A stretch of 6,770 nucleotides of DNA. Origin: Clostridiales bacterium. Its GTDB lineage: Bacteria; Bacillota; Clostridia; Christensenellales; Aristaeellaceae. The stretch is from positions 1 through 6,770 of the forward strand of contig JAAZEI010000168.1 of assembly GCA_012512355.1 (NCBI GenBank). Direction: 5' to 3'. Below the pieces are notes generated by a model. The model saw only the letters and a program-made list of their open reading frames with translations, was not told the origin of the DNA and made no database searches. The translations under genes and the position numbers were made by a program. Of the stretch, positions 240 through 6,770 are shown piece after piece. Every line of letters starts with the position of its first letter. The stretch's first letter is position 1.

Positions 240-1085
240 ATGAGCAGTTGTAAAATCTTTACAAACTCAATTTCAGATATGCCAGTCTGGCTTACACAAA
301 AATACAATATTGGTATCATCCCCGATATTGTCATTTCTCAGGGCAAAGAGTATTTTTGCGGTATTGACCTTCAGCCGCTTCAATTATATGATATGATGCG
401 TAGCTCTGAGATGCTGCCCAGTACTTCCCACCCCAATGAGTATATCTATGCCTCCTATTTTAGAGAAGCAGAGGTATATGATGAAATCCTCTGTATTACC
501 GTTACAAGTTTGATGAGCGGTTCTTATCAAACCTCCAGCCAAACAGCCCGGTCAATGGAAGTGGAAGGCTTTAAAACTCCGATTTACATCTATGACTCTC
601 AGCAAGTCTCCTATGGGCTGTCTCTGATGGTGTTGGAGGCTGCAAAAATGGCTGAAAAAGGGATGACAGCAACTCAGATCATAACTCATCTGGACAGTAT
701 CAGAAGTAAAATTGGGGTATATTTCTGCTTACAAACTCTTGAAAACGCGAAAAAAGGCGGTCGTGTCGGGGAGATTAAAAGCTTGGCGGCTGGACTTCTT
801 AAAATCTTGCCAATTTTGACATTTAAGAATGGTACCGTCAAAGAACTCCGTTTGGTTCGCAATTTCCAAAAAGCTATCCTTGGCTTTGCTGATTATTATA
901 AACAGCTGGCAAAAAAAGACAGTATGGTTTTTATATTCCACGCAAATAATGAAAAAGATGCGCTGCGCGTTAAACAATCCATTCTCCAGGAAGAGCCTGA
1001 TGCCGATGTATATACCGAGTGGATTGGCCCGGCGATTGGGATATACGCAGGCGAAGGTGCGGTAGGCATCGCATTTATTGAATGA
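240..1085 (+). CDS. DegV family protein (FakB-like fatty-acid-binding protein)
   Basis: The 281-residue product is a full-length DegV protein, the family that includes FakB. FakB proteins are cytosolic carriers that hold a fatty acid while the kinase FakA phosphorylates its carboxylate. Visible family motifs, numbered from ATG 240, are TNSISDMP (8-15), the PSTSHPN loop (60-66), LMSGSYQTS with the presumed lipid-carboxylate serine S93 (91-99), DSQQVSYGL (119-127), TLENAKKGGRVG (166-177) and IGPAIGIYAGEGAVG (262-276). The last motif normally contains HTG, but here the histidine is replaced by Tyr269. An in-frame ATG at 222 would add six residues but lacks a ribosome site. No FakA-type kinase is in the window. 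The gene leads an overlapping operon, and its TGA shares four bases (ATGA) with the next start. Family assignment is firm; the natural ligand is unknown. Confidence 0.93.
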   Translation: MSSCKIFTNSISDMPVWLTQKYNIGIIPDIVISQGKEYFCGIDLQPLQLYDMMRSSEMLPSTSHPNEYIYASYFREAEVYDEILCITVTSLMSGSYQTSSQTARSMEVEGFKTPIYIYDSQQVSYGLSLMVLEAAKMAEKGMTATQIITHLDSIRSKIGVYFCLQTLENAKKGGRVGEIKSLAAGLLKILPILTFKNGTVKELRLVRNFQKAILGFADYYKQLAKKDSMVFIFHANNEKDALRVKQSILQEEPDADVYTEWIGPAIGIYAGEGAVGIAFIE

Positions 1086-1672
1086 TTTCTGTATTTTTGA
1101 CCTTTTGTTCTTTTGGGATGATGTTTTTATCGGATACGTTCAAACTGCACAAACGCAGGAAAGCAGGCAATCTCTTTTTTTTTGGCGGGGTACTAACGCT
1201 TATTGCAGCGGGTGTATTCGCATCCCTGAGCTCAAAGCGATTTGACCTTGCGCCAGCGTTCAAGACGCTATCCCTCTTTATTGCTGCGACAGGAGGCTGT
1301 GGACTGTTGTTTTCTCTTTTCTTATCACTGCCCGCTGTGCATACTTACTTTGGCAAGGAAGAACCCGGATTTCTGGTAGACAGTGGAATGTATGCCCTGT
1401 GCAGGCATCCGGGTGCATTGTGGTTTCCTATCTTTTCGTGTTTTTTAGCACTTGGGCTGGCCAACCCAGAACTGCTGTTGGCTGCCGTACTTGCTTCTTT
1501 GCTCAATGTCCTTTATGTTTGGTTTCAGGATAAGAAAATTTTTCCGCATACAATCATGGGTTACGAGCGATATCAAAAAACAACTCCTTTTTTGCTGCCC
1601 AATGCCCATAGCTTTTCGCGCGCTATCGGAAAAAAAGTTAAGAAACAGGTAGAAAAGCAGGTGGACAAATGA
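1082..1672 (+). CDS. Small membrane protein, ICMT/PEMT-like methyltransferase family
   Basis: The 196-residue product is mostly hydrophobic, with about five likely membrane segments (roughly residues 2-17, 30-49, 63-83, 111-128 and 129-148). Its C-terminal half carries the pattern of isoprenylcysteine carboxyl methyltransferases and related phospholipid methyltransferases: GMYALCRHPG (102-111), then after two helices GYERYQKTTPFLLP (160-173). Family members use S-adenosylmethionine to methylate carboxyl groups or lipid head groups at the membrane. The acidic pair usually seen before the last motif appears only as QD (149-150), so activity cannot be assumed. The tail is strongly basic and internally repetitive (KQVEKQVDK, 188-196). 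There is no clear Shine-Dalgarno site: the nearest GGTAGG (1061-1066) is 15 bases away. Translation probably depends on coupling through the ATGA overlap with degV. The start of the next gene is coupled the same way. Substrate unknown. Confidence 0.7.
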   Translation: MISVFLTFCSFGMMFLSDTFKLHKRRKAGNLFFFGGVLTLIAAGVFASLSSKRFDLAPAFKTLSLFIAATGGCGLLFSLFLSLPAVHTYFGKEEPGFLVDSGMYALCRHPGALWFPIFSCFLALGLANPELLLAAVLASLLNVLYVWFQDKKIFPHTIMGYERYQKTTPFLLPNAHSFSRAIGKKVKKQVEKQVDK

Positions 1673-3297
1673 AATTTAAAGAAAAGCTGCTGAAAGAATC
1701 CCCAGAAACAATATGGCAGGAACACTGTGGTTTTCTTGACCTTAGCATGAAAGAATACATCAATATTCAAAAAAGTCTGTTGATGGAGCAGATAGACCTC
1801 CTCTCTTCCAGCAATCTTGGCAAGAGGCTGATGAAAGATCAGGTGCCTAAAACGATCGAGGAGTTTCGAAAAACCGTACCGCTGACCAGTTTTGAGGATT
1901 ATGCTGATACACTGCTGATGCGCCGCGAGGAAGAGCTTCCCACAAAGCCTCAAATATGGTTGGAAACCACCTGGGAAGGGGGAGAATACCCCAGGAAAAC
2001 TGCACCTTACTCAAAAGCGATGCTGGATACATATACCAACAATCTGTTTTCGGTGATGATTTTGGCAGCATCTTCGTGCAGAGGACAATTTCGTGTCCGT
2101 TCGCGAAGCAAAGTACTTTACACACTGGCTCCATTGCCTTTTGCTTCGGGGCTTTTCCCGGAGCTGATGAAAAATGAAGTTGATTTCCATTTTATGCCGC
2201 CCGTGAAGGATGCCCTGGAGATGTCCTTCAGCCAGCAAATGTCCCGTGGATTTGAATTGGCTGTAAAGCATGGCTTGAACCAGTTTTTTGGCATGAGCAG
2301 CATTCTTTACTATATCAGCCAAAACCTCTTATCCGGTACAAGGTCAGGCCTGAGCCTCAAAAAGCTCTCCGGCATGTCTCCTGTCATGTTATATAGACTA
2401 ATCAAAGCACGTTACCGCAGCCGCAGGGACAATGTACCTATCCTCCCCAAAGATATATTCAAGCTGGATGCTTTTGTCTGCGTGGGTAACGATTCTACGT
2501 TGTACAAGCCTGAACTCGAAAAATATTGGGGAAGAAAGCCCATGGAAATTGCCGGCGGCACGGAACCCACCCTCATCGGGACCGAAACCTGGAGCCGGGA
2601 CGGTTTGGTCTTTTTTCCGGACGCTTGCTTCTATGAGTTTATTCCTGAGAAGGAAATGCGGCGCAGCCTTGAAGAGCCGGATTATTCACCTCGTACTTAT
2701 CTGATGGATGAGCTCAACGCGAACCAATTATATGAGTTGGTGATTACTGTACTTAAAGGCGGAGCATTTGTCCGCTATCGTGTAGGTGATGTGTATCGCT
2801 GCCTTCGCCTGTCAAATCCAAGTGATAATCTATCCATCCCCCAATTTGAGTTTGTTGACCGTACACCCAATATCATTGATATTGGCGCATTCACACGCAT
2901 CACAGCACGAGAGATTGACAAGGTTATTCGTCTGTCAGGTTTGCCCATTCGGCACTGGACTGCTTTGAAAGAGTATGACAGCGACAAGAAATCCTTCCTT
3001 CAGATGTTTCTGGAAGTTGAGGATGACAGTCTTGAAAACCAAAGTGCCGCAGCGGATATTCTCAAAGAGCATTTAAGCCTCTATTTCCGTTACTATGACA
3101 ACGATTATGTGAGTCTGAAAAAGCTTCTTCAGATAGATCCCCTTCGTGTCACGGTGGTCAAAGGCGGATCTTTTGAGGCATTTGAAAAGCTGAGGGGGCA
3201 TCCCCTGGGCAGAATCAATCCGCCTGCTGCTGATGTCATCGACTTTAGAGCGCTTTGCGGATACGCAGGGACGGGAGGAAGCAGCGCGTGGCAGTAA
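1669..3297 (+). CDS. GH3-like acyl-adenylating enzyme (ANL superfamily)
   Basis: The 542-residue product resembles the bacterial branch of the GH3 family. GH3 enzymes activate a carboxylic acid with ATP as an acyl-adenylate, and the plant members then transfer it to an amino acid. Recognisable elements are a GGTEP motif (296-300) matching the ANL Y-G-x-T-E motif, with Glu299; RYRVGD (369-374) with the expected ribose-binding aspartate; the following FEFVDRTPNIIDIG (393-406) with a conserved arginine; and a C-terminal domain containing KGGSFEAF (498-505) and GRINPP (514-519), as in the GH3 C-terminus. The region where the ATP P-loop should lie reads TTWEGGEYPRKTAPYS (100-115). It keeps the K-x-x-P end but lacks the usual Thr/Ser/Gly-rich stretch. 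No signal peptide or membrane segment is seen, so it is probably cytosolic. ATG 1669 overlaps the previous stop by four bases and is preceded by AGGTGG (1659-1664). Acyl and acceptor substrates cannot be read from sequence. A LuxE/acyl-protein-synthetase-like role is an alternative. Confidence 0.8.
   Translation: MKFKEKLLKESPETIWQEHCGFLDLSMKEYINIQKSLLMEQIDLLSSSNLGKRLMKDQVPKTIEEFRKTVPLTSFEDYADTLLMRREEELPTKPQIWLETTWEGGEYPRKTAPYSKAMLDTYTNNLFSVMILAASSCRGQFRVRSRSKVLYTLAPLPFASGLFPELMKNEVDFHFMPPVKDALEMSFSQQMSRGFELAVKHGLNQFFGMSSILYYISQNLLSGTRSGLSLKKLSGMSPVMLYRLIKARYRSRRDNVPILPKDIFKLDAFVCVGNDSTLYKPELEKYWGRKPMEIAGGTEPTLIGTETWSRDGLVFFPDACFYEFIPEKEMRRSLEEPDYSPRTYLMDELNANQLYELVITVLKGGAFVRYRVGDVYRCLRLSNPSDNLSIPQFEFVDRTPNIIDIGAFTRITAREIDKVIRLSGLPIRHWTALKEYDSDKKSFLQMFLEVEDDSLENQSAAADILKEHLSLYFRYYDNDYVSLKKLLQIDPLRVTVVKGGSFEAFEKLRGHPLGRINPPAADVIDFRALCGYAGTGGSSAWQ
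3273..3279 (+). promoter_or_regulatory. Ribosome binding site deciding the sensor gene start
   Basis: GGGAGGA lies inside the end of the GH3 gene, eight bases before GTG 3288. An upstream in-frame TTG at 3255 has no comparable site and would add an implausible arginine- and lysine-rich stretch of 11 residues, so GTG 3288 is chosen. Confidence 0.7.
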
Positions 3298-5795
3298 ATA
3301 GTACCCTCTTTGTCGCTATCCCAGCAGCGGCACTGCTTCTCAATCTGTTTCTCCTGCTGGTATGCATCAGCGCTAAAAAAAGCAAGCTTGTCATTGCTTT
3401 CATGCTGCTGGTAGCCTCTTATTCGATCTGGAGCGGCGGGTCTTTGGGGATGCGTGCCATGATATATCCGGGAGCCATCTTCTGGTTCAAGGTATCTTTT
3501 ACAGGTATTCTCCTTGTTCCCTTTATGATTTATAATTTTGTATACGAATATACCGAGCAAAAGGGTACTTTTACTCGCAGTTTAATGGCCGTCAGCTGGT
3601 TTATTATCATTGTTCTGGCCAACCTGGACTTATTTATCAAATCACCTGCGATTGCTTCGGAAAATGCGACGCGAAGTTTCGAATACACACTGACAAATTG
3701 GACTATTCTGCCAATTTTGTATGGGGTTTTCACACTTGGGCTCACCTTCCATATGATTTTTAAAAGCATCGCATATAAAGGCCAGTCTCTTAATGCTTTT
3801 ACACCTTTTTTCCTGGGCACTGGCGTATTGTTTGTTGGTTTGCTCTTAACGGTCATCCCAGGCTTCGGCTCTTTTCCAATTGACCCTTTGGCCTGCGGCA
3901 TTAATGCTCTCTTTCTATTTTACGCACTCTATAAGAAGCGTTTGATTACTTTTAAGATGGTTGCTTCGCGAGGGCCCTTGTACTTGTCAGCGATCATCAT
4001 GATGACCGCGCTGATGACGGTATTGTATTCCTCATTTGAAGAGATGTATGACCGGCGATTTCCGCAATATATAGCATATAAACCTATTGTGTTCTCGGTC
4101 ATACTGTCAATTCTCACTGTTTTGGTTTATAACTTGATTAGAAAAGCTCTCTTCCTTTTGTTTAACAAAACCCATGCAACAAGGGAGGAAGAGCTTCGCC
4201 GCTTCAGCCGGGAAATCAATGAATCGCTGGATGACAAACAAATATTAAAGACTTTTTGCGACCTGATCGAGCGGAACATGGATTGTGACATGGCCTATGT
4301 GCTGGTGAGTGATGACAGCGGCAATTATGTAACAGAGGCCGCAACTCTCCCGGTCTTGTCCGGAGGTATTGCCATTCGCAGTGAAAGCCCTGTGATAGAA
4401 TGGCTCAAGGAGCACAATCTTTCCATTACCTACAAAGATTTTACGCGCACCAAAAACTTCCATGCGATGTGGGAAAGTGAAAAAAGCACCTTCGTGGACA
4501 ATAACATCAAGCTGTTACTGCCCATTGCGGAGGGCAAGAGATTGCTCGCTCTTGCTCTGTTTGCAGATCGCGGGAACCATAAGAATTATTCTCCCGGTGA
4601 GATTACCTTCCTGGAGTCAGCCGGAGCGGTGATGTCCATCGCGACAAAAAATGCTTTGCTTTATGCTGCTATGCAAAAGGAAGCTTATACAGATACCTTG
4701 ACGGGCTTATATAATCGGCGCTATTTCAACAGCATTGCAAAAAAACAATTTGAGCAGGCAAAAATGCATACCTTGTCTGTCGTTCTAATTAGTTTTGATG
4801 ACTTTACCCTTTACAGAGAACTTTATGGGTCACTTCGGATTGAAACCGTGCTCAAGGACATGGCAAAGATCCTTTTGTCTGCCATCGGTAGCCAGGGCTG
4901 TGTGGCCAGATACAGCGAAAGAGAGTTTATCATTTCTATACCGTTTATCGATACTGAAGCGACGGGCAGAATCATTGAAGTGATACGAAATCTGTTCAAA
5001 AATCATGTGGATAATAAACGCGAACATGGGTACCGGCACCTCACCTTTTCTGCCGGCATATGCACCTACCCGGTATCATCTTCCAACCTTGAAGAGACCA
5101 TTAACTACGCCGGGGTTGCCCTATACACTGCCAAAAAGAATGGGAAAAACAGAACGCAGGTCTATAGCACAGAAACTTCGGGCAAGGCGCTGACGCCTGA
5201 GGCCATGCGGTTTGGCGAGCAGTGTGAGCGAACCATCTACGCCTTGACCGCCGCGATTGACGCCAAAGATCATTATACCTTTCAGCACTCTCAAAACGTG
5301 TCCCTATATGGCGCGAAACTGGCAGAGTATATTGGCCTGGACCCCGAGCATGTTGAGATTATCAGGCAGGCAGGCTTACTGCACGATGTGGGAAAAATTG
5401 GCATCCCGGAAAGTATTTTGAGTAAAGAGGGAAAATTAACGGATGAGGAACTCGCCATTATGCGCGAGCACCCTGAGGCATCGGTGGCGATGATAAAATA
5501 TCTACCAAGCCTTGATTATGTTGTCCCGGCGGCGTTTAGTCATCATGAACGCTGGGATGGCAAGGGTTATCCTCGAGGCATTGCCGGTGAGGATATTCCT
5601 ATTGCTGCACGCTGCTTGTGCATTGTCGATGCTTTTGATGCCATGACCACCCAGCGCAGTTACAAGGCAGCGATGAGTGTCGAAGATGCTCTGGACGAAA
5701 TCCGTCGGAATTTGGGTACTCAATTCGATGCTAAAATTGGATTGGCTTTCATCAAACTGGCAGAGAGCGGCGACCTTGCGATTCATAAAGTATGA
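3288..5795 (+). CDS. Membrane sensor: 9 TM, GAF, degenerate GGDEF, HD-GYP (c-di-GMP phosphodiesterase)
   Basis: Numbering is from GTG 3288 (835 residues). Nine hydrophobic segments lie at about 6-29, 34-55, 61-86, 97-117, 136-160, 173-194, 198-216, 230-250 and 264-292. The first seven resemble the 7TM N-terminal region of histidine kinases (His_kinase_N). A GAF domain follows (about 305-460), then a GGDEF domain (about 467-628) that keeps DTLTGLYNRR (469-478). Its signature site, however, reads SEREF (543-547), the first metal aspartate is Ser502, the substrate asparagine is Arg510, and no RxxD inhibitory site is visible. Cyclase activity is therefore very unlikely. The C-terminal HD-GYP domain (about 648-823) looks complete: His667, HDVGKIGIP (699-707), His728, HHERWDGKGYP (752-762) and DAFDAMTTQRSYK (781-793). 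Its predicted role is membrane-signal-controlled hydrolysis of cyclic di-GMP. The gene overlaps the GH3 gene by ten bases, which ties this sensor to the three upstream acyl-related genes. The domain call is firm; the input signal is unknown. Confidence 0.93.
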   Translation: MAVNSTLFVAIPAAALLLNLFLLLVCISAKKSKLVIAFMLLVASYSIWSGGSLGMRAMIYPGAIFWFKVSFTGILLVPFMIYNFVYEYTEQKGTFTRSLMAVSWFIIIVLANLDLFIKSPAIASENATRSFEYTLTNWTILPILYGVFTLGLTFHMIFKSIAYKGQSLNAFTPFFLGTGVLFVGLLLTVIPGFGSFPIDPLACGINALFLFYALYKKRLITFKMVASRGPLYLSAIIMMTALMTVLYSSFEEMYDRRFPQYIAYKPIVFSVILSILTVLVYNLIRKALFLLFNKTHATREEELRRFSREINESLDDKQILKTFCDLIERNMDCDMAYVLVSDDSGNYVTEAATLPVLSGGIAIRSESPVIEWLKEHNLSITYKDFTRTKNFHAMWESEKSTFVDNNIKLLLPIAEGKRLLALALFADRGNHKNYSPGEITFLESAGAVMSIATKNALLYAAMQKEAYTDTLTGLYNRRYFNSIAKKQFEQAKMHTLSVVLISFDDFTLYRELYGSLRIETVLKDMAKILLSAIGSQGCVARYSEREFIISIPFIDTEATGRIIEVIRNLFKNHVDNKREHGYRHLTFSAGICTYPVSSSNLEETINYAGVALYTAKKNGKNRTQVYSTETSGKALTPEAMRFGEQCERTIYALTAAIDAKDHYTFQHSQNVSLYGAKLAEYIGLDPEHVEIIRQAGLLHDVGKIGIPESILSKEGKLTDEELAIMREHPEASVAMIKYLPSLDYVVPAAFSHHERWDGKGYPRGIAGEDIPIAARCLCIVDAFDAMTTQRSYKAAMSVEDALDEIRRNLGTQFDAKIGLAFIKLAESGDLAIHKV

Positions 5796-5958: not shown

Positions 5959-6770
5959 ATGAAAAAACTTATTCTAATCCTATTGATTGCTTCGATCATG
6001 ATGAGCACTGTTGTTTTGCCTGTATGGGCCGAAATGGAAAGCCTTAAACAGCAAGAGGTTGATGAATTGGAAACGGCCATCATTGATGAATCCAAGGAGC
6101 TCATCATTCAAGATCAATTTCGTATAAATATCACTGAAAAAGATCTCTCAGTTAGAGAAGGCCTTGATAAAGAATGGAAAAATATTCTCCTCCTGGGAAC
6201 GGATACAGGAAGTGCTTCGCTCAACCATGGACGCACAGATACCATGATCATCTTGTCTGTTAATATTAAAACAGGCCAGATGCGTCTGTCATCTTTGGTC
6301 AGAGATATGCAGGTGAATATCCCTTATCGGGATAATCTTTACAAGATAAATGTAGCAAATGCTTTTGGTGGACCTTTGCTAGCTATTAAGGCTGTCAATG
6401 AAACATTCGGTTTGAACATTACAGACTATTGCTCAGTAAACTTCAGTGGGTTTGTAAAGATTATTGATTCTTTAGGCGGGGTGGAATTGAGTTTAGACAT
6501 TGCGGAAGCATTTATAGCAGGCGCAGCTCTCACAACAGAGCCACAGGTGTTAAACGGAACACAGGCGCTTGAGTATGTGCGTATAAGAAAGCTGGATAAT
6601 AACTTTGGACGAAACAATCGCCAGCGTATATTGCTTTCGTCCATTTTCGAGAAAATTGTGAGCGACTCAAATATGCAGCAAATTACGACGGCTTTGTCTG
6701 AAGTGCTGAAATATATGTCTACAAATTTAACATTAAACGAAGTTTTGCAATTAACTCTCCCGGTTCTGGG
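5959..6770 (+). CDS. LytR-CpsA-Psr (LCP) family protein, 3' end beyond the window
   Basis: The first 270 codons are present and no stop is reached before the window ends. LCP enzymes act outside the membrane and transfer undecaprenyl-linked glycopolymers such as teichoic acids or capsule to peptidoglycan. Family motifs in order are ILLLGTDTG (76-84), HGRTDTMIILSVN (90-102), RLSSLVRDMQV (109-119), YKINVANAFGGP (128-139), NFSGFVKIIDSLGGVEL (161-177), LNGTQALEYVRIRKLD (198-213) and NNFGRNNRQR (214-223). The expected arginines (92, 115, 218, 221) and aspartates (82, 94) are in place. The usual D-F-G-R aspartate is Asn215. The N-terminus is MKK plus a hydrophobic stretch ending VWA before Glu25, which reads as a cleavable signal peptide rather than the usual permanent membrane anchor. 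A charged linker (25-72) precedes the domain. GAGG (5948-5951) lies seven bases before the ATG. An intergenic gap and its own candidate promoter suggest separate transcription from the upstream operon. Confidence 0.93.
   Translation, partial: MKKLILILLIASIMMSTVVLPVWAEMESLKQQEVDELETAIIDESKELIIQDQFRINITEKDLSVREGLDKEWKNILLLGTDTGSASLNHGRTDTMIILSVNIKTGQMRLSSLVRDMQVNIPYRDNLYKINVANAFGGPLLAIKAVNETFGLNITDYCSVNFSGFVKIIDSLGGVELSLDIAEAFIAGAALTTEPQVLNGTQALEYVRIRKLDNNFGRNNRQRILLSSIFEKIVSDSNMQQITTALSEVLKYMSTNLTLNEVLQLTLPVL

Follow-up and report, generated by a model that had tools for sequence, protein, structure and literature searches.

The stretch of DNA analysed here (the window) is a complete contig of 6770 bp, JAAZEI010000168.1, from a Clostridiales bacterium whose assembly of 2.0 Mb in 367 contigs is 79% complete, and it encodes candidate enzymes of carboxyl chemistry directly next to a membrane receptor with a predicted role in cyclic di-GMP (c-di-GMP) turnover. 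Because the window is the whole contig, the sequence beyond its 5′ end is not readable. Open reading frame (ORF) calling placed four co-oriented genes on the forward strand, which overlap by 4, 4 and 10 bases: a DegV-like gene (240–1085), an ICMT-like gene (1082–1672), a GH3-like gene (1669–3297) and the receptor gene, which begins with a GTG codon (3288–5795). This reproduced the coordinates and overlaps given in a preliminary description of the contig, and the families that it had proposed for the GH3, DegV and HD-GYP proteins were borne out by Pfam (GH3_M/GH3, PF02645 and HD_5, respectively).

Comparison with other genomes shows that the core of this locus is a trio with the order ICMT-like gene, GH3-like gene and 7TM-GAF-GGDEF-HD-GYP receptor gene. 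The comparison covered 28 loci outside the window, nine from named genome contigs, 18 from further genomes and one from a contig of a viral collection, and adjacency was counted only where the contig extends far enough for the neighbor to be read. Directly downstream of the GH3 gene, the receptor gene is present on the same strand in 27/27 readable loci (it is unreadable in L008), and the ICMT-like gene directly precedes the GH3 gene in 26/26 (unreadable in L009 and L010). In view of these two adjacencies, the conclusion that the enzyme set and its own c-di-GMP receptor form one unit is well supported. The preliminary description had named a scarcity of HD-GYP genes beside the other genes as grounds for abandoning its proposal, and the counts show the reverse. 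Its four-gene operon stands as far as the ICMT-like, GH3-like and receptor genes are concerned, which are conserved together, whereas DegV is an accessory, located immediately upstream of the trio in 6/24 readable loci (unreadable in L006, L009, L010 and L041). The contig end cuts the ICMT-like gene in L041 and the DegV gene in L036; in L042, where the ORF caller picked other frames, tblastn located the trio together with 1.0 kb of DNA upstream of it. L011, an ordinary distant GH3 match, was excluded from the counts. The loci are not independent events, since some of them are closely related: L003 and L005 belong to two Hungatella species, L008 and L010 to a single assembly, and L043, L044 and L049–L053 to a single genus (in the loci of this genus other than L043, the receptor genes are intact). 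Among the named carriers are Hungatella hathewayi, H. effluvii and two assemblies of Anaerotignum. The flanking genes outside the trio, compared by eye, vary among the main groups and are partly common to near relatives. In the viral-collection contig (L103, 239–9214), the entire trio lies downstream of phage-like genes and is perhaps host DNA beside a prophage.

The same association was observed at the level of whole genomes. Among 150 genomes of the family, the GH3-like protein matched 14 at E ≤ 0.001, eight of them strongly (E ≤ 1.7e-151, the window's own genome included); the other six matches were weak ones to ordinary GH3 proteins (L019–L024, E-values of 5.0e-9 to 7.5e-5), which were not counted as members. 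A profile of the receptor's sensor domain, applied to the same 150 genomes at E ≤ 1e-5, returned exactly those eight. In 391 genomes of the class, searches with the GH3 clade and with the sensor again returned identical sets, of seven genomes including the window's own. In both surveys, neither the GH3 clade nor the sensor is seen without the other; the chance of identical sets is 1.9e-13 for the 150 genomes and 3.8e-15 for the 391, when kinship and adjacency are ignored. Two further surveys with the GH3-like query alone found it in 7/67 and 2/22 genomes, so the distribution of the cassette is patchy. The ICMT profile matched 48 of the 150 family genomes, with a clean gap between the eight cassette genomes (E ≤ 8.8e-30) and the best of the others (6.9e-13), which indicates a broad family with one cassette branch. 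Over 22 loci, the pairwise distances of the three proteins are correlated, with coefficients of 0.97 for GH3 and receptor, 0.92 for ICMT and receptor and 0.90 for ICMT and GH3. Finally, a search with the sensor region across 5.8 billion proteins, which reaches only relatives of similar length with common short words, gave 41 matching proteins, 38 of them with both GGDEF and HD domains; the remaining three are short (516–537 aa), and one of these is labelled partial.

The GH3-like protein matches GH3_M (PF23571, 2.5e-13) and GH3 (PF03321, 2.6e-5), and its structure model predicts a full two-domain GH3 fold like that of plant JAR1. Motif III (RYRVGD, residues 369–374, positions 2773–2790) follows the YRxGD pattern of GH3 enzymes, with R369, Y370, R371, G373 and D374 invariant in 57 aligned rows. 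From the YGSSE-type motif II, a GTE remnant (residues 297–299, positions 2557–2565) with the invariant Glu299 is kept in the same 57 rows, and the remainder of the motif differs. Nucleotide motif I is replaced: the segment TTWEGGEYPRK (residues 100–110, positions 1966–1998), which aligns with TSSGTSGGVPK of GH3.15, departs from the SSGTSxGxxK type, and the whole clade has TTWEGGxxPxK with small variations. T100, W102, G105 and K110 are invariant in the 57 rows, and T100, T101, W102, E103 and G105 (TTWE.G) are unvarying in all 120 of the nearest homologues listed, with Gly (100 proteins) or Ser (20 proteins) at position 104. The locus proteins have T[TA]W[EK].G in 25/25, and the four most distant of them carry the Lys variant. 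These four cassettes (L045–L048) combine TTWKGG in the GH3-like protein with GGEEF in the receptor, and the chemistry of their motif I may differ. Among seven control loci with ordinary GH3 genes, the SGT-type loop was found in four, and the other three gave no pattern match.

The bacterial GH3-like enzyme OlsH of planctomycetes couples ornithine to fatty acids and shares its operon with the ornithine-lipid N-methyltransferase OlsG; the motif I of OlsH is TSGTTQGATK with an essential Ser115 (PMC12493201). In an ungapped profile alignment, Trp102 of the window protein stands opposite this Ser, and a two-residue insertion would place Thr101 there; the structure model is weak at residues 101–110 (mean pLDDT of 68), and the pairing of the loops is ambiguous. 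The uniformity of the replacement looks like an altered active site and not like decay. The preliminary description was thus right to place the protein in the GH3 family, but the adenylating and amidating activity that it attached to the family is not simply transferable to a protein with TTWE.G as motif I, and with this motif replaced, adenylation is no more than putative. In the reading given below, the protein would activate a carboxylate despite its altered motif I.

The ICMT-like gene is assigned to an integral membrane methyltransferase by its orthologue profile. The window protein alone had no Pfam or NCBIfam match at E ≤ 0.01, and its Pfam matches are weak and under the cut-off (16.5 bits for PEMT, against a cut-off of 25). 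At E ≤ 0.1, the PEMT Pfam model touches 15 and the ICMT model 4 of 22 members. The profile of the 22 orthologues matches a single PDB chain, that of the ICMT structure 4a2n, with an E-value of 7.6e-6, in agreement with the ICMT-like protein proposed earlier. Residues R108, H109, P110 and G111 of the RHPG motif (positions 1403–1414) are invariant in the 22 sequences, and RHP aligns with 4a2n, as does a C-terminal Y..Y....P motif that is likewise invariant. We take RHP and Y..Y....P to be motifs of the ICMT/phospholipid methyltransferase superfamily, and we infer that the protein would methylate a carboxyl group. The alignments of locus proteins comprised 25/25 ICMT-like, 25/28 GH3-like and 24/28 receptor rows, with short rows left out.

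The third gene of the trio encodes a membrane receptor in which four Pfam regions follow one another (PF16927, PF13185, PF00990 and PF13487). The earlier view of this protein as a receptor with an HD-GYP output is confirmed by HD_5, but it had overlooked the GAF and GGDEF domains. The GAF domain (4230–4643) matches PF13185 at 2.5e-6 with 28.2 bits, slightly under the cut-off of 28.6; the GGDEF domain (4683–5153) matches PF00990 at 3.1e-30, and its signature is degenerate (RYSEREF, 4908–4928); the HD-GYP domain (5253–5738) matches PF13487 at 2.9e-40, with HD at 5382–5387 and GYP at 5565–5573. The HD and GYP signatures are kept in 24/24 receptors. The GGDEF signature is degenerate in 20/24 (SEREF in the window), which departs from the signature of diguanylate cyclases, and GGEEF is present in the other four, L045, L046, L047 and L048. 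With an intact HD-GYP and a degenerate GGDEF, most of the receptors are likely phosphodiesterases with a non-catalytic GGDEF domain, which perhaps binds GTP. Since GGEEF is kept in the distant branch L045–L048, these receptors may be bifunctional and perform both c-di-GMP reactions. The HD-GYP domain matches PDB 5z7c best (4.5e-36), the 3′3′-cGAMP phosphodiesterase V-cGAP3, followed by 4mcw (4.1e-35). It shares the intact signatures of these phosphodiesterases and differs from them in being joined to a nine-helix sensor, a GAF domain and a degenerate GGDEF domain. Its substrate would be c-di-GMP or 3′3′-cGAMP, and the domain likely breaks down c-di-GMP.

The N-terminus of the receptor forms the sensor domain (3288–4142). 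It consists of the HisKA_7TM region (PF16927, 5.4e-10) and two more helices, and nine long helices with a β-hairpin between helices 4 and 5 are seen in the AlphaFold2 model of residues 1–310 (mean pLDDT of 83.6), in line with the nine-helix receptor of the preliminary description. Over 24 proteins, the mean number of Lys and Arg residues is 2.88, 1.17, 2.92, 4.33 and 5.29 in the putative inner loops and 0.04, 1.38, 1.29, 0.46 and 0.67 in the putative outer loops, so the inner side is clearly enriched in these residues in four stretches out of five, all but the loop between helices 3 and 4. This enrichment fits a topology with the N-terminus outside and the C-terminus inside. Two charged residues, Arg56 at the predicted outer end of helix 2 (3453–3455) and Asp199 at the predicted outer end of helix 7 (3882–3884), are invariant in 24/24 proteins, and an outward-facing Arg56 would suit a carboxylate ligand. 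The matches to seven-transmembrane receptors of eukaryotes are too weak to indicate kinship.

The accessory gene upstream of the trio encodes a DegV/FakB-like acyl-binding protein (240–1085; PF02645, 1.9e-62), for which an in-frame ATG is also found at 222. The structures that it matches include DegV 3fys (9e-29) and FakB1 (9.1e-28), and it is below the NCBIfam cut-off for FakB1 (131.5 versus 350 bits). It thus belongs to the family of the FakB fatty-acid kinase subunits, but differs from them at the position of the usual C-terminal His. This position is occupied by Tyr269 in the window (1044–1046) and by Tyr in 5/5 members of the window's operon DegV subfamily (the window, L002, L036, L037 and L038), so the conserved His of FakB is absent from the subfamily, while His is found in 28/29 paralogous DegV loci of ten genomes and is kept in both Hungatella operon DegVs (L003 and L005). 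The conserved C-terminal His of FakB is credited with a role in phosphate transfer, which the passages searched in PMC11617999 and PMC9136124 do not show. If this role holds, the window DegV may bind fatty acids but not deliver them to FakA.

The c-di-GMP network of the window's genome, recovered to 79%, is very small. The assembly contains five GGDEF matches at E ≤ 1e-10, one of which is the operon receptor, and a single HD_5 match, which is again the operon receptor; no EAL protein was matched in it, while EAL proteins are present in 6/8 carrier genomes of the family. With one HD_5 match and no EAL match in the assembly, the receptor may be the main c-di-GMP phosphodiesterase of the organism, a fifth of whose genome is missing. 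G239 and G333, carriers of one genus, have 60 GGDEF matches each at the same threshold, far above the genomes of the window's family. As for other features of the contig, a LytR-CpsA-Psr (LCP) glycopolymer transferase gene (5959–6770; PF03816, 2.7e-33) starts 163 bases past the receptor gene and is truncated by the contig end. Riboswitch control of the operon was considered and dropped, as no Rfam family reached the gathering score in the window or in eight relatives. Promoter and terminator scans gave counts near those of shuffled sequences (17 versus a mean of 13.4 and 5 versus a mean of 6.7, respectively), so no such signal is claimed.

These observations can be tentatively read, at somewhat less than even confidence, as a make-and-sense signaling cassette, in which the enzymes make or finish a lipophilic carboxyl compound, the receptor senses it, and the breakdown of c-di-GMP is set as a result. 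An enzyme pair that is firmly tied to a receptor of its own is most simply explained if both enzymes work on the ligand of that receptor. The GH3-like and ICMT-like proteins would make or finish the compound, and their product would be the ligand of the co-encoded receptor, binding on its outer side near Arg56 and Asp199. Binding would alter the phosphodiesterase activity and thereby the rate of c-di-GMP breakdown by the HD-GYP domain, possibly with a second input from GTP bound to the degenerate GGDEF domain. In the window's lineage, the acyl substrate would be handed over by DegV, which may be an acyl carrier that has lost its role with fatty-acid kinase. Several points weigh against such a cassette. 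Its substrate, product and ligand are all putative, and motif I, which in OlsH contains the essential Ser, is replaced in 120/120 listed homologues and 25/25 locus proteins. In 18/24 readable loci the trio has no neighboring gene for DegV, which is the only clear acyl binder, and neither an exporter nor a transcription factor was found in the conserved unit of the loci read. In L043 (7678–10214), from the complete single-contig genome G239, a frameshift splits the receptor gene while the ICMT-like and GH3-like genes are open. Moreover, cassette proteins were the source of the sensor profile, so that it would miss more distant sensors.

The gene order and co-occurrence would also be expected if the receptor sensed a fatty, aromatic or other carboxylate from outside and the enzymes conjugated or methylated the same compound for clearance or storage, with c-di-GMP signaling its presence. 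The invariant outward Arg56 could hold such a carboxylate, and plant GH3 enzymes conjugate and inactivate hormones; we nevertheless consider this account unlikely, though it is a serious contender, as the conserved unit contains no transporter or degradation gene. The invariance of an altered motif I, together with the tight link of the GH3-like gene to the receptor gene and the distance correlation of 0.97, could also mean that the GH3-fold protein is non-synthetic, binding a ligand or nucleotide as part of a receptor complex with the ICMT-like protein. This is rather less probable, because a mere binding subunit need not keep an invariant motif III, the motif II Glu and the predicted two-domain GH3 fold, and RHPG and the C-terminal Y..Y are kept in the ICMT-like protein.

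A further account, which we regard as improbable, treats the enzymes as an output that builds a membrane lipid or surface compound, while the receptor tunes c-di-GMP to the state of the membrane or to an unrelated cue governing the same surface change. By family, all three core proteins either reside in or close to the membrane or have carboxyl compounds as substrates, and OlsH makes ornithine lipids (PMC12493201). However, the predicted topology places the invariant charged residues of the sensor on the outer side, and a lipid pathway with a housekeeping role should be more widespread than 8 of 150 family genomes. Gene overlaps are frequent in bacteria with compact genomes, and the trio might be nothing more than co-transcribed neighbors without a joint function, yet the unbroken adjacencies (27/27 and 26/26) and the identical genome sets of two surveys leave this explanation very little room.

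The make-and-sense cassette has partial counterparts among known systems. In DSF signaling of Xanthomonas (RpfF, RpfB, RpfC and RpfG), which uses a diffusible fatty-acid signal, signal-making genes are coupled to sensing proteins, the last of which is the HD-GYP phosphodiesterase RpfG. The cassette resembles it in the coupling of genes that are here candidates for making a signal to sensing that ends in HD-GYP, but its enzymes are GH3-like and ICMT-like instead of RpfF, and, unlike in a two-component pair, the sensor and the HD-GYP domain reside in one protein. Pfam and NCBIfam scans found no RpfF-type crotonase signal synthase among the window's proteins, so the cassette is not a member of the DSF family. 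A GH3-like protein encoded alongside a methyltransferase is also found in the OlsH operon, which we count in favor of the make-and-sense reading; OlsH differs in having an SGT motif I with Ser115 and OlsG as its partner, where the cassette combines TTWE.G with an ICMT-like protein and adds the gene of a receptor. From the plant GH3 amido synthetases JAR1, GH3.12 and GH3.15, the clade is set apart by its replaced motif I. The trio was not found in the published literature, in a search that ran without most subscription papers and without any bioRxiv preprints, and the preliminary description likewise knew of no system of such composition. Each part comes from a known family. No earlier account of the fixed trio, of the sensor branch linked to it or of the changed GH3 loop came up in our searches.

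It is possible, if doubtful, that the cassette represents a new bacterial signaling class. In it, a GH3-fold enzyme whose nucleotide loop has been redesigned would produce a signal together with a carboxyl methyltransferase of the membrane, and a dedicated nine-helix receptor would read this signal on the outer membrane face and respond with c-di-GMP degradation; Clostridia would thus have a circuit like that of DSF built from wholly unrelated parts. To our knowledge, few chemical signals that feed into c-di-GMP are known in Clostridia. With a candidate synthase, a candidate modifying enzyme and a candidate receptor at one locus, the signaling question becomes testable there, and culturable carriers exist in Hungatella. 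In addition, the cassette marks out a clade of GH3-fold proteins whose motif I is invariant and unexplained, which would represent either a new nucleotide chemistry in a well-studied fold or the recruitment of the GH3 fold as part of a sensor.

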